Assembly (NCBI RefSeq): GCF_003611035.1
Contig: NZ_CP030033.1
Coordinates: forward strand, 2,356,001-2,420,000
Length of the DNA: 64,000 nucleotides
Direction: 5' to 3'
DNA from: Cryobacterium soli
Lineage (GTDB): Bacteria; Actinomycetota; Actinomycetes; Actinomycetales; Microbacteriaceae
The notes below the pieces were generated by a model. The model was not told the origin of the DNA. It worked only from the letters and a program-made list of their open reading frames with translations, and did no database searches. Shown piece after piece: positions 42,346 through 47,370 of this stretch. Numbering within the stretch: the stretch's first letter is position 1; each line of letters starts with the position of its first letter. Made by a program: the position numbers and the translations under genes.

Positions 42346-44931
42346 ATGCCTTACTCTCCCGAGACCATTCCGGCCAACCCCGCCAGCTCCGCCGATCACC
42401 CCGGCTCCGACGGCTTCGTGCGCGTACGCGGCGCGCGGGAGAACAACCTGCGCGACGTCGACGTCGACGTCCCCCGCGACGCCATCGTCGCCTTCACGGG
42501 CGTCTCCGGCTCCGGCAAGTCCTCGCTCGCCTTCGGCACCATCTTCGCCGAGGCCCAGCGTCGTTTCTTCGAGTCCGTGGCGCCCTACGCGCGGCGCCTG
42601 ATCCAGCAGGGCCACACCCCGCACGTCGACCTCATCACCGGGCTACCGCCCGCCGTCGCGCTGCAGCAGCGCCGGGGGTCGCCCAGTTCACGCTCCAGCG
42701 TCGGCACGGTCACCACACTGTCCAACTCGATGCGGATGCTGTACTCCCGCGCCGGCACCTACCCGGCCGGGTCCGACCTGCGCCTGGACTCCGACGCGTT
42801 CTCGCCCAATACGGCTACCGGTGCCTGCCCGGTGTGCCACGGTCTGGGCATCTCGCACACCGTGACCGAGTCGCTGCTGGTGCCCGACGCGAGCCTGAGC
42901 ATCCGTGACGGCGCGATCGCGGCCTGGCCCGGCGCCTGGCAGGGCAAGAACCTGCGTGACGTGACCGCGGGGCTGGGCTACGACATCGACGTGCCCTGGG
43001 CGTCGCTCAGCCCGGAGGACCGCGACTGGCTGCTCTACACGGAGGAGCAGCCCGTTGTGGAGGTCACCCCGCAGCGCGACAGGGTGGCCAAGCCCTACAA
43101 GGGCCGGTTCTGGAGCGCGAAGAGCTACGTGATGCATACCCTGGCCGACTCGAAGAGCGCCCAGATGCGCCAGCGGGTGCTCGCCTTCGTGCAGACCGGC
43201 CCGTGCGAACTCTGTGGCGGCAGCGGCCTGCGGGCCGAAGCCCTCGCGGTGACGTTCGCCGGTCGACCGATCAACGAGCTCAACGCCCTCACCCTCAGCG
43301 AGCTCGCCGACGTCCTCCGCCCGACAGCGGAACTCACCGATGCAGCCAGCTCACACCGCTCCATCCAGTCCGGCGAGGTCACCGAGGTGGCCGTCACCGT
43401 GGCCGGCGACCTGGTGCGCCGGCTGACGGTGCTCATCGATCTCGGGCTCGGCTACCTCAGCCTGGGCCGCGCCACCCCCACCCTCTCCCCGGGCGAGATG
43501 CAGCGCCTGCGCATCGCCACCCAGCTGCGCAGCGGCCTGTTCGGCGTGATCTACGTACTCGACGAACCCTCCGCCGGCCTGCACCCCGCCGACGCCGAGC
43601 CGCTGCTGCTGGTGCTCGAACAGCTCAAGGCATCCGGCAATTCGGTCTTCGTGGTCGAGCACAATATGGATGTCGTGCGCCGCGCCGACTGGCTCGTGGA
43701 CGTGGGGCCGCGAGCCGGCGACGGCGGCGGCGAGGTGCTCTACAGCGGGCCGGTCGGCGGCCTGGCCGAGGTCGAGACCTCGGTCACCCGCGGCTACCTG
43801 TTCCCGACGAGCCCGAGCGAGGCGCCGCCGGCACCGCGCGAGGCTGCCGCCTGGCTGGGCCTGACCGGCGTCACCCGACATAACCTTGTCGATCTCGACG
43901 TTCAGGTGCCCCTGGGCGTACTCACGGCCGTCACCGGGGTCTCAGGGTCGGGCAAGTCGACCCTGGTCAGCAAGGTGCTCGCGGATGCCGTGGGCCGGGA
44001 GCTCCGCCAAGGCTCTGTCGACGCCGTGCCCGCGGGCGCTGCCGCGGTCGATGCCGACGACGACGAGGCGACCGACGAGGACGAGGCCGGCACCGACCGG
44101 GCCACCACGATCGTCGACGCCGTCACCGGAGCCGGCGCCATCGACCGGCTGGTGCGCGTGGACCAGAAGCCCATCGGCCGGACCCCGCGGTCCAACCTGG
44201 CCACCTACACGGGCCTCTTCGACGCCGTGCGCGCCACCTTCGCGGCCACAGCGGCGGCTAAATCGGCCGGGTTCACCGCGAGCCGGTTCTCCTTCAACGT
44301 GGCCGGCGGTCGCTGCGACACCTGCCTGGGCGAGGGCTTCGTCGCCGTCGAGCTGCTCTTCCTGCCCGGCAGCTACGCGCCATGCCCCGCATGCGGCGGC
44401 TCCCGGTACAACGCCGAGACCCTCGCGGTGCACTACAACGGCAAGTCCGTCGCGGATGTGCTCGGCCTCACGGTGGATGCCGCCGCAGCCTTTCTCGCCG
44501 ACGTGCCCAGCGCCTCCCGCAGCCTGGAGACCCTGCGCGAGGTGGGCCTGGGCTACCTGCGGCTCGGCCAGCCCGCCACCGAGCTCTCCGGCGGCGAAGC
44601 GCAACGCATCAAGCTGGCCACCGAACTGCAGCGCGCCCGCCGCGGGCACACGCTGTACCTGCTTGACGAACCCACCACCGGGTTGCATCCAGCCGATGTG
44701 GACCTCCTGATGACACAGCTCGGCCGGCTCGTCGACGCCGGCAACACCGTGGTCGTGGTGGAGCACGACATGGGCGTGGTGGCCGCCGCTGACTGGGTCA
44801 TCGACCTGGGGCCGTCCGGCGGTACTGCGGGCGGGCGCATCGTGGCCGAGGGCACCCCGGCCACCGTGGCGGCGCATCCGCACAGCCGCACTGCCCCGTA
44901 CCTCGCCCGACGCTTGGAGCTAGCTGTGTAA
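42346..44931 (+). CDS. Class II UvrA-like ABC ATPase (UvrA2/DrrC-type)
   Basis: The 861-residue protein has two UvrA ATPase halves: Walker A GVSGSGKSSLAF and GVSGSGKSTLV, signatures LSPGEMQRLRIA and LSGGEAQRIKLA, Walker B VLDEPSAGLHP and LLDEPTTGLHP. Zinc modules are CPVCHG, CELCGGSG, CDTCLGEG and CPACGGSRY. It is shorter than housekeeping UvrA (about 950) and lacks the UvrB-binding insertion, as in class II UvrAs tied to drug or DNA-damage tolerance. An acidic insert (DADDDEATDEDEAG) lies in the second half. The second signature-type loop of the first half has Pro in place of Gly (LSPGE). TAAAGT lies 7 nt before the ATG. Confidence 0.93.
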   Translation: MPYSPETIPANPASSADHPGSDGFVRVRGARENNLRDVDVDVPRDAIVAFTGVSGSGKSSLAFGTIFAEAQRRFFESVAPYARRLIQQGHTPHVDLITGLPPAVALQQRRGSPSSRSSVGTVTTLSNSMRMLYSRAGTYPAGSDLRLDSDAFSPNTATGACPVCHGLGISHTVTESLLVPDASLSIRDGAIAAWPGAWQGKNLRDVTAGLGYDIDVPWASLSPEDRDWLLYTEEQPVVEVTPQRDRVAKPYKGRFWSAKSYVMHTLADSKSAQMRQRVLAFVQTGPCELCGGSGLRAEALAVTFAGRPINELNALTLSELADVLRPTAELTDAASSHRSIQSGEVTEVAVTVAGDLVRRLTVLIDLGLGYLSLGRATPTLSPGEMQRLRIATQLRSGLFGVIYVLDEPSAGLHPADAEPLLLVLEQLKASGNSVFVVEHNMDVVRRADWLVDVGPRAGDGGGEVLYSGPVGGLAEVETSVTRGYLFPTSPSEAPPAPREAAAWLGLTGVTRHNLVDLDVQVPLGVLTAVTGVSGSGKSTLVSKVLADAVGRELRQGSVDAVPAGAAAVDADDDEATDEDEAGTDRATTIVDAVTGAGAIDRLVRVDQKPIGRTPRSNLATYTGLFDAVRATFAATAAAKSAGFTASRFSFNVAGGRCDTCLGEGFVAVELLFLPGSYAPCPACGGSRYNAETLAVHYNGKSVADVLGLTVDAAAAFLADVPSASRSLETLREVGLGYLRLGQPATELSGGEAQRIKLATELQRARRGHTLYLLDEPTTGLHPADVDLLMTQLGRLVDAGNTVVVVEHDMGVVAAADWVIDLGPSGGTAGGRIVAEGTPATVAAHPHSRTAPYLARRLELAV

Positions 44932-44953
44932 AGGGCGTCTCACCCGGTCAAAC

Positions 44954-44967
44954 GGGACTTTGGTCCC
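44954..44967 (+). promoter_or_regulatory. DosR/DevR-like box, perfect dyad
   Basis: GGGAC-TTTG-GTCCC is a perfect 5-4-5 dyad. TAAGCT at 44991-44996 is the likely -10. The box centre is about 42 bp upstream of the implied start, the classical activator position. Confidence 0.65.
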
Positions 44968-45014
44968 CACTCCCGGTTCGGCGGCAATTCTAAGCTGAGC
45001 CGGGAGTTGAGAAA

Positions 45015-46241
45015 ATGAAGCGCAGCACGCTGTTCCGCCGCTCGCCCGGCCCGCTCGAGACGAGCCGCACCGGCGACTTCGGCTATCTGCAGCCGGGCGA
45101 GGTCTATCTCGATGCCGCCTGCCAGAGCCTCCGGCCGCAGAGCGTCATCGACGCCCTCACCGACTACTACACGAGCTACAACGCCTGCGGCGGACGCGTG
45201 AAGTACGCCTGGGGACAGAAGGTTGACGCCCAGGTGGCCGACACCCGCAAGGCGGTCCTCGGCCTGCTTGGACTCTCGGCCAGGAACCACGCCGTCTCGT
45301 TCACGCTCAACACCACCTACGGCCTCAATCTGCTGTTGCAGCAGCTTCCGCTGGGGCGTTTCGACCGCGTCGTGACCAGCCACATCGAGCACAACTCGGT
45401 GTTCCTGCCCACCATCACGGCCGCCCGCCGGCTGGGCGTTGAACGCCTGGTGCTGGATCGCGCCGCCGACGGCGCCCTGATCTACGAGCCGGCGCAGCTC
45501 GAGAAGGCCGTCGTGGTCGTCAACGCGGCGTCCAACATCGACGGCCGGCAACTCACCAACCTCAGCGACCTGGTGCGCGACACCCACGCCCGCGGCGGCA
45601 TCGTCATCGTCGACGCCGCGCAGGCCATGGGGCATGCGCGGGCGCTGCTGCAGAAGACCGACGCGGATGCACTCTGCTTCTCCGCACACAAGATGTACGG
45701 CGCGAGTCTCGGCGTCGTCGTGGCCCGGCACGAGCTGCTGGCCTCGCTCGAGCTCACCTTCGTGGGCGGCGGCATGGTGCAGGACGTGCGCGAAGAGGAC
45801 TTCGACCTCGTGCAGGGTGACCCTGCGGCGCTGCTCGAACCGGGCCTGCAGGCGTGGGGCGAGATCATCGCGCTCGGCCGGGCGATCGAGTGGCTCGGCG
45901 GCATCCGCCCCGGCGGTCTCAACCCCGCCGAGCACATCAGCGGCCTCTCCACCCGACTCTTCGACGGTCTCGCCGCGGTCCCAGGGCTCACCCTGCTGAA
46001 CGACGTGCCCAGCCCGGTGATCAGCGTCTACGCGCCTGCGCATGACTCGCACCGGCTCGCGGTGTTCCTCTCGCACTCCCAGATCATGGTGCGCAGCGGC
46101 TATTTCTGTGCGCACCACCACCTCAAGGAGCAGCTCGGCCTCCCGCCGCTGCTGCGGTTCTCCCTCGGCCTGCACTCGACGGAGGCGGACATCGACTCCG
46201 CCACCGGGGCCCTCACTCGGCTGATGAAAGGCCTCTCCTAA
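45015..46241 (+). CDS. Class V aminotransferase, cysteine-desulfurase-like
   Basis: This 408-residue PLP enzyme of the NifS/SufS superfamily has the PLP-lysine in CFSAHKMYGASLGVVVARHE (Lys226) and VIVDAAQAMGHA with the PLP-contacting Asp. HIEHNSVFLP matches the family's SxxEHHANxxP site. RSGYFCAHHHL aligns with the R-x-G-x-x-C loop of SufS, so the catalytic Cys (Cys365) is present and persulfide formation is plausible. The N-terminus FGYLQPGEVYLDAACQSLRP departs from SufS. There is no SufBCD or IscU nearby. The partner is a membrane thioredoxin-fold protein whose GTG directly follows the stop. GGGAG lies 8 nt before the ATG. Confidence 0.85.
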   Translation: MKRSTLFRRSPGPLETSRTGDFGYLQPGEVYLDAACQSLRPQSVIDALTDYYTSYNACGGRVKYAWGQKVDAQVADTRKAVLGLLGLSARNHAVSFTLNTTYGLNLLLQQLPLGRFDRVVTSHIEHNSVFLPTITAARRLGVERLVLDRAADGALIYEPAQLEKAVVVVNAASNIDGRQLTNLSDLVRDTHARGGIVIVDAAQAMGHARALLQKTDADALCFSAHKMYGASLGVVVARHELLASLELTFVGGGMVQDVREEDFDLVQGDPAALLEPGLQAWGEIIALGRAIEWLGGIRPGGLNPAEHISGLSTRLFDGLAAVPGLTLLNDVPSPVISVYAPAHDSHRLAVFLSHSQIMVRSGYFCAHHHLKEQLGLPPLLRFSLGLHSTEADIDSATGALTRLMKGLS

Positions 46242-47300
46242 GTGTTCTGCATCGCGGCATTCATCATCCTGGTCATTATGGCCGCCTTCTCGGCGCGGTA
46301 CCGGCGCTACGTCGGTAAGGCCTGGAACTGCACGTGGCGGAAGGTCACCTTCCGGCCCTGCGACACCACCTTCAAGCAGGACATCAAGGATCACCTGCTC
46401 GCCCCGGTCGCCGCTCGTCGGCCCGGCCTGGTGAAGCCGGCCAGCATCGGCCTGGAGATCCTCGCCGTGCTGGTTCTGCTCACCACCATCTGGTCTGGCT
46501 ACACAGTGGTCAAGAGCGCCGTCAACCTCTACGTCTACGGCACCTGCAACAAGCAGGATTCGGCATCCTGCACGCTGGGCGCCGAAGCTTGCTCGATCCC
46601 CGACGAGACCCCCGGCTTCATGGAGTCACTGGGTGCGTTCGATGTGGTCGGCGCCTTCGGCAACGAGTTCGCCAGCCTCGGCGAGACCTTCGCGGCCATT
46701 CCGGCCCGCCTCCAGAACTGGACCTCAGAGGACTACCTGCCGGCCAACGCCACCTACCTCACCGAGGATGCCGCCAACCCGATCGCCGTCGAGGTCATCG
46801 ACCCGGGCTGCACCTTCTGCAAGGCGCTCTTCGCGAACATCGAGGAGTCCGGCTTCGAGTCCACCCACAACCTCACCTACATCGCGTACCCGATCAAGGG
46901 CACCGACGGCTACAAGTTCCCCAACTCGCTGCTCGTGACGCAGTACCTCGAGGCCCTGCGGCTGCACCCGCTGGACGGCGCCGACACCCCTGTCGACTGG
47001 CAGATGCTCAAGCGCATCTTCACCGAGAAGACGGATGCCGGCCTGCCCTGGCAGGGTGCGATCAACTCCATGGATGCCAAGGAGGCCACCTCCACCCTGG
47101 TGGGCTGGCTCGACGAGTTCGGCCTGAGCGCCGACCAGATCGACGTGGTCGTGGCCGAGGCCGGCTCGGACAAGGTGACCGACATCATCGACGCCAACAA
47201 GACGCTCGTGGAAGAGAAGATCGCGACCATCAAGATTCCCACGATCATCTTCGACGGCCGGCGCCACGACGGCCTGGTCTCGGTCGACGGCCTGCGCTGA
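46242..47300 (+). CDS. Membrane-anchored thioredoxin-fold protein with CxxC, desulfurase partner
   Basis: This is a 352-residue protein. A first membrane helix (residues 2-18) is followed by a basic loop YRRYVGKAWNCTWRKVTFRP with Cys30 and Cys40. A second helix (about 69-95) leads to a segment with Cys102, 110 and 117, and a thioredoxin/DsbA-like domain with PGCTFCKALF (Cys190-Cys193) and KIPTIIFDG near the end. Positive charges place the first loop in the cytoplasm and the CxxC domain outside. The start GTG (FCIAAFIIL) directly follows the desulfurase stop. Proteins of this shape recur with the same partner in diverse bacteria as far as I recall, but no function is known to me. Confidence 0.8.
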   Translation: MFCIAAFIILVIMAAFSARYRRYVGKAWNCTWRKVTFRPCDTTFKQDIKDHLLAPVAARRPGLVKPASIGLEILAVLVLLTTIWSGYTVVKSAVNLYVYGTCNKQDSASCTLGAEACSIPDETPGFMESLGAFDVVGAFGNEFASLGETFAAIPARLQNWTSEDYLPANATYLTEDAANPIAVEVIDPGCTFCKALFANIEESGFESTHNLTYIAYPIKGTDGYKFPNSLLVTQYLEALRLHPLDGADTPVDWQMLKRIFTEKTDAGLPWQGAINSMDAKEATSTLVGWLDEFGLSADQIDVVVAEAGSDKVTDIIDANKTLVEEKIATIKIPTIIFDGRRHDGLVSVDGLR

Positions 47301-47312
47301 CCCCCGGCCGCC

Positions 47313-47370
47313 GGTCGAGCGCAGCCGCTGGTCGAGCGCAGCCGCTGGTCGAGCGCAGCCGCTGGTCGAG
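47313..47370. repeat. 17-bp tandem repeat
   Basis: The unit GGTCGAGCGCAGCCGCT is repeated at 47313, 47330 and 47347 with a partial fourth at 47364. The GGTCGAG core is also that of the palindrome at 22624-22712. Confidence 0.9.

Follow-up and report, generated by a model that had tools for sequence, protein, structure and literature searches.

Results

The window analysed here is a stretch of 64,000 nucleotides (nt) of Cryobacterium soli, positions 2356001-2420000 of the single-contig, 4.39 Mb genome G000, and its near relatives by DNA comparison are Cryobacterium species. Within it we studied a two-gene locus, in which the gene for a SufS-like cysteine desulfurase is followed by the gene for a membrane protein with several cysteines. 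The pair had been pointed out in a preliminary description of the window, and both the observation and the gene coordinates were confirmed. Its features, with window positions, are as follows (PLP, pyridoxal 5'-phosphate; TM, transmembrane helix).

45015-46241, + strand: gene 1, SufS-like (type II) cysteine desulfurase, 408 residues, with the extra Cys36 and Cys58; assigned from its PF00266 match and conserved residues
45120-45122, + strand: codon of Cys36, in a DxAC motif of the paired desulfurases (48/48 paired rows covering the site)
45186-45188, + strand: codon of Cys58, in a CxxR motif, three residues before Arg61 (49/49 paired rows covering the site)
45690-45692, + strand: codon of Lys226, the PLP lysine (invariant in 17 rows)
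46107-46109, + strand: codon of Cys365, the persulfide cysteine (50/50 paired rows)
46242-47300, + strand: gene 2, two-TM membrane protein, 352 residues, with a predicted cytosolic cysteine loop and an extracytoplasmic DsbA/ScsC-like domain
46248-46250, + strand: codon of Cys3, predicted at the outer end of TM1 (231/231 rows reaching the site)
46296-46439, + strand: basic, predicted cytosolic loop, residues 19-66, with invariant Cys30 (46329-46331) and Cys40 (46359-46361)
46545-46592, + strand: predicted extracytoplasmic Cys102, Cys110 and Cys117, just past TM2 (237/237)
46713-47297, + strand: DsbA/ScsC-like thioredoxin domain, residues 158-352, with the CxxC motif Cys190/Cys193 and the presumed cis-Pro333

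The GTG start codon of gene 2 lies directly 3' of the TAA stop codon of gene 1. This junction without a spacer was observed in all 20 Cryobacterium sequences compared (window included), the start being GTG in 19 and ATG in L014, and in the same 20 sequences AAAGG or AAGGG is found a few bases 5' of the start. The two genes had been called translationally fused; the abutting stop and start codons are real, but they encode two adjacent, separate proteins.

The desulfurase and its additional cysteines

The product of gene 1 is a class-V PLP enzyme (PF00266, E = 5.6e-59), and comparison with SufS places it in the type II, SufS-like kind. It combines the PLP-enzyme fold with the PLP lysine and the persulfide cysteine of the SufS family, and its score against the NCBIfam SufS model TIGR01979 is below the cut-off (193.5 versus 475.1 bits). 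Besides Lys226 and Cys365, His126, Asp200, Gln203, Arg360 and Arg381 are invariant in an alignment of 17 rows, window included, which bears out the earlier assignment of a NifS/SufS-like enzyme with Lys226 and Cys365. The residues for cysteine desulfuration are intact in the predicted product. Cys36 and Cys58 are missing from the canonical SufS proteins of G000, G062 and G568, genomes that also hold pairs, and Cys36 is missing from three unpaired desulfurases. In the alignment with SufS, Arg61 takes the place of the arginine in the persulfide-gating loop (Arg56 in Escherichia coli). According to one report, this arginine is able to contact the substrate sulfur and seems to keep SufE from approaching closely; in the SufS-SufE complex, it contacts the SufE molecule docked on the adjacent subunit (PMC11408855). 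The desulfurase gene of G062 (L126:2962-4179) contains an in-frame TAG, and the SufB-type match of that genome (G062:C12) also has one TAG; these could stem from assembly error, decay or recoding.

The membrane protein

For the product of gene 2, Pfam gave nothing at E up to 1 and NCBIfam nothing over the cut-off; the Pfam search thus returned neither the DsbA families PF01323/PF13462 nor a SufE- or SufU-type domain. Two hydrophobic segments enclose a loop of net charge +9 (12 basic, 3 acidic residues), and the stretch after them carries -6. The loop was the more positive side in 335/335 homologues scored (25 others were omitted); therefore, Cys30 and Cys40 are predicted inside and Cys102, Cys110, Cys117, Cys190 and Cys193 outside. 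This charge-bias prediction agrees with the topology proposed earlier, a basic loop with Cys30/Cys40 inside and the CxxC motif plus three more cysteines outside. The outer domain folds like DsbA and ScsC (a copper-sensitivity suppressor), and the proline in the cis-Pro position is invariant in the homologues.

Conservation counts rest on the best 120 of 610, the best 120 of 502 and the best 120 of 1229 matches. Cys30, Cys40, Cys102, Cys110, Cys117, Cys190 and Cys193 are invariant in 237 window-type sequences, that is, the window and 236 of the 240 fetched, four shorter ones being omitted. A sister type (120 sequences, the best matches) has the N-terminal module in common with these and a matching arrangement of cysteines (Cys3, 30, 40, 102, 111, 129, 165 and 168); Cys3 is present in 119/119 rows reaching the site and the other seven cysteines in 120/120. 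A distant sister-type member, L051, has SxxC instead of CxxC. Thus, the cysteines already listed for the locus, including Cys365, Cys30/Cys40 and the CxxC pair, are all conserved, and the inventory had overlooked Cys36 and Cys58 of the desulfurase and Cys3 of the membrane protein.

Conservation and distribution of the pair

In 24/25 loci found by a DNA search of genome contigs, the desulfurase gene lies directly 5' of the membrane gene. We further compared 42 two-gene loci, comprising 13 Cryobacterium sequences (window included), G062 and 28 Patescibacteria. The genes are on the same strand in 42/42, and in 40 of them the gap is between -4 and 56 nt; L062 has a longer gap of 152 nt, and L070 one of 1155 nt that contains an opposite open reading frame (ORF). 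Two of the 30 Patescibacteria loci were omitted from this set: L079 begins at the membrane gene, and in L072 (G956) the desulfurase is on a different contig. In G940 the two genes sit at two contig ends. The two genes are thus nearly always adjacent, and rare adjacency, which would have told against the pair, was not what we observed. The pair is kept in Cryobacterium and further Microbacteriaceae as well as in a number of Patescibacteria lineages, and thus both in soil bacteria that favor the cold and in very small, uncultured bacteria; since it is conserved from Actinomycetota to Patescibacteria, a chance association can be excluded.

The membrane gene was found in 29/57 genomes of the genus, 2/120 of the family and 1/396 of the phylum, this one being the window's own; on the other side, it occurs in 11/242 genomes in the class of G568 (Peribacteraceae) and in 16/332 of its phylum, Patescibacteria. 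A desulfurase profile (E up to 1e-100) run against the same 332 genomes found 19, namely the same 16 and three others. The 16 desulfurases all have Cys58, and Cys36 is present in the 15/15 that reach the site; the three others (G1057, G655, G649) have canonical motifs and come without the membrane gene. A sister-type tally in the class of G943 (255/285 genomes match) was set aside as uninformative on the pair. Among the matches listed there, four are full length (G943, G1161, G1120, G1139), two more reach the N-terminal module (G1293, G1262) and the others cover the DsbA domain only.

The Cryobacterium loci fall into group A (the window and L001-L008, membrane proteins 83-89% identical) and group B (L009-L023, 69-73%). 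In a midpoint-rooted desulfurase tree, which calls for caution over long branches, Microbacteriaceae rows are nested inside Patescibacteria rows; the tree includes part of groups A and B and leaves L009 unresolved. Transfer of the pair between the phyla is likely, its direction not being proven by this nesting. Carriage by phages or plasmids was rejected: a profile search of viral contigs gave no match, and a single plasmid match was weak and partial (E = 2e-3). In addition to its intact pair (L003), Cryobacterium adonitolivorans has another, broken remnant of the membrane gene with no desulfurase beside it (L025:4217-4802), and in the Cryobacterium breve ERMR7:08 assembly both genes are interrupted (L022:6819-9057), through sequencing error or decay.

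Gene neighbourhoods

Part of the gene neighbourhoods points to copper or heavy-metal stress. Of the 15 group B loci, 11 have a multicopper oxidase upstream of the pair, 12 have a gene of the F510_1955 family and 11 have a CopM/DUF305 gene; the family assignments were verified on just L011 and L012. A stretch of 23 nt separates the end of the oxidase ORF from the desulfurase in L012. None of the three was found in L009, L010 and L022. In 10/30 Patescibacteria pair genomes, P-type ATPase domains are encoded no further than 10 kb from the pair (expectation 1.53, P = 9.6e-7), and in 7/30 no further than 5 kb (expectation 0.78, P = 8e-6). These statistics treat genomes as independent and genes as randomly placed, with rounded genome sizes; since related genomes (G678, G596) are among those counted, the true P is larger. 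A CPC or CPH heavy-metal motif is present in 9/10 of these ATPases, that of G571 being the one without. Efflux genes for Cu, Zn/Cd and As are found near some pairs, with CDF and ACR3 in L076 and CDF in L077; DUF305 is found in L066. Adjoining the pair in L067 (7304-8577) is a copper-handling set of an HMA domain gene and a DsbD_2-cupredoxin fusion. The reference genes for the metal-gene counts were chosen from the same loci, and in 20/30 Patescibacteria loci they revealed no metal gene within the stretch fetched, some stretches being short; they revealed none in the window either.

In L066, L067, L075 and L123, the pair has a soluble DsbA-like gene next to it or a short way upstream. Small cysteine-containing membrane proteins, related by eye, are encoded upstream of the sister-type pairs L075 (11211-11708) and L076 (11859-12269). 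The SufB/D matches of G000 sit at C1:253459-255381, far from the window, as the earlier statement that no such gene is near the pair had it. No SufB/D was found in 9/25 Patescibacteria pair genomes, some of which could be explained by incomplete metagenome-assembled genomes (MAGs).

Two further features lie directly around the window pair. A UvrA-like gene (PF17755) adjoins it upstream (42346-44931); this gene is directly upstream in the window, L001-L005, L007, L008, L127, L128 and L129 and not in L006, and its conservation is confined to group A. Downstream, between the pair and opposing ABC transporter genes, short tandem GGTCGAGCGCAGCCGCT-like repeats were noticed by eye at 47305-47370.

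A DosR-like palindrome

One regulatory feature precedes gene 1:

44951-44970, + strand: palindrome resembling a DosR box, group A only

Against what we take to be the DosR consensus, the palindrome matches 14/14 core positions and 17/20 of the full consensus. The description of the box as perfect therefore holds for the core and not for the whole. Such a box is rare by chance, with 0.02 expected when up to 3 mismatches are allowed. With up to 4 allowed, it is present upstream in 6/23 Cryobacterium sequences, namely the window and five group A relatives (group A 6/9, group B 0/14). Since the box is confined to group A, control by hypoxia or nitric oxide through DosR, which had been suggested for the pair, is unsupported as a general feature, and we rejected it as the key to the function.

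Discussion

The genomic comparisons give good support to a dedicated desulfurase-membrane protein pair and point to a so far unnamed system that would join a sulfur supply inside the cell to thiol chemistry outside it. The reading that we tentatively favor, at somewhat less than an even chance, is that the pair forms one dedicated thiol/sulfur relay that shields the cell surface, probably from copper and further soft metals. Type II desulfurases keep their persulfide buried and need a transpersulfurase (PMC10011822). Because the membrane protein is the constant companion of this desulfurase and carries an invariant cytosolic dithiol, Cys30/Cys40, we propose it as the acceptor, its loop replacing SufE or SufU. 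Cys58, placed in the gating loop, could serve as an internal relay that passes sulfur between Cys365 and the membrane-protein loop. Judged from the sequence, both the loop-acceptor step and the hand-over by Cys58 are likely. The loading state of Cys30/Cys40 would then be coupled to the outer thiols, recharging the ScsC-like domain; this coupling is the weakest step. The recharged domain could repair metal-damaged thiols or hold Cu(I), a role suggested by the ScsC/DsbA-like domain and the metal-gene neighbours. For ScsC itself, repair of metal-oxidized thiols or Cu(I) handling is known from two reports (PMC8900818, PMC5524982).

Several observations weigh against this relay. No conserved cysteine is predicted in the middle of the membrane, a model of both proteins as one fused chain gave no confident docking (predicted TM-score, pTM, 0.56), and no copper gene of those tested was found in the window. 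Since the fused chain had a one-residue linker, and the joined ends are predicted on opposite sides of the membrane, the model does not refute docking either. The earlier idea that sulfur or electrons pass through the membrane protein to an outside target is therefore upheld as to the dedicated pair and unsupported as to the passage across the membrane. The sequence cannot tell whether sulfur, reductant or oxidant moves. A form of the relay that is powered by cysteine would run from the three-cysteine desulfurase to the membrane acceptor and on to the outer ScsC-like domain, carrying sulfur or redox equivalents that serve to defend against metals or to control disulfides, with DsbD, DsbB and quinone all dispensed with; this form is possible but rather doubtful. 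Iron-sulfur (Fe-S) cluster assembly was rejected as the main role, given the separate SufB/D, a stronger separate PF00266 match and the pair genomes without SufB/D.

The pair could also act as a persulfide-powered oxidase, in which the sulfane sulfur of Cys365 would oxidize Cys30/Cys40 to a disulfide and leave as H2S, driving disulfide formation outside; cysteine would thus replace quinone as the electron acceptor in cells without DsbB or VKOR. The eight invariant cysteines could make four pairs, and soluble DsbA-like genes accompany the four loci named above. VKOR exceeds the cut-off in just 3/25 Patescibacteria pair genomes, which keeps this explanation alive, but the counts come from incomplete MAGs in a search that did not include DsbB. 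Besides, a persulfide is a weak oxidant, and all three actinobacterial pair genomes tested have VKOR and hence no need for such an oxidase. We consider this explanation unlikely. It is a still smaller likelihood that the two proteins are co-regulated and uncoupled, the extra desulfurase mending Fe-S clusters and the ScsC-like protein mending disulfides under metal stress. Copper attacks both Fe-S clusters and extracytoplasmic thiols, and the metal-gene neighbours would fit. However, the exact co-occurrence of one desulfurase subtype with its partner across 332 genomes, the special Cys36/Cys58 and the pair genomes without SufB/D speak against it, and the invariant cytosolic Cys30/Cys40 would be left unexplained.

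Alternatively, the acceptor loop might free H2S or persulfide at the membrane to precipitate metal or build an outer Cu-S site. Desulfurase chemistry is able to release sulfide, and the efflux genes near some pairs are in line with such a use. On the other hand, H2S crosses membranes unaided, which would make an elaborate outer thiol domain needless, and no labile-sulfur protein was recognized near the pair; this sulfide supply is improbable. Signalling, with the outer cysteines sensing metal or redox state and tuning the desulfurase inside, would use the same topology and cysteines and would not require a cysteine bridging the membrane, of which none is predicted. Nevertheless, a sensor would need less than this DsbA-type fold, with its CxxC and its invariant proline at the cis-Pro position, and we regard this role as very improbable.

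If the relay that we favor is correct, the linkage of a desulfurase with an extracytoplasmic thioredoxin domain would constitute a new route for moving sulfur or redox power outward. In its cysteine-powered form, the relay would represent a novel means of driving extracytoplasmic thiol chemistry and would extend across both Patescibacteria and Microbacteriaceae. It would also hint at how Patescibacteria manage their surface thiols, as 22/25 pair genomes have no VKOR over the cut-off, and would assign a role to the window's membrane protein, for which neither Pfam nor NCBIfam has a matching family. The cysteine desulfurases known to us all serve cytosolic acceptors. In the open-licence literature, covered by titles and abstract openings, no description of the pair was found.

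Among known systems, SufS-SufE/SufU and CsdA-CsdE share with the pair a homologous enzyme (PLP lysine, persulfide cysteine, conserved arginines) and a dedicated partner. In contrast, the partner here is a membrane protein, Cys36 and Cys58 are added, the enzyme falls under the NCBIfam SufS cut-off, and SufB/D lie elsewhere in the genome. ScsC resembles the membrane protein in its DsbA-type thioredoxin domain with CxxC, but is soluble and periplasmic, whereas the domain here is anchored by two TM helices joined to a cytosolic cysteine loop. The partner differs as well, a desulfurase here and ScsB in Scs loci (PMC8900818). Like the thiol relays DsbD, ScsB and CcdA, the pair would link cytosolic and extracytoplasmic thiols, but it has two TM helices, no predicted mid-membrane cysteine pair and no Pfam match to such a family. 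Patescibacterial DsbA-family 'protein-disulfide isomerase' proteins (P0241-P0360) have the same N-terminal module, the same eight cysteines and a desulfurase directly upstream in loci with both genes readable. Their outer domain differs in being shorter and recognized as PF13462/PF01323, and the sister-type L051, L053, L055 and L056 reach the Pfam gathering score for these families. Each half resembles a known kind, and we rate the pair as a variant of the desulfurase-acceptor systems that stands a real chance of proving to be a kind of its own.
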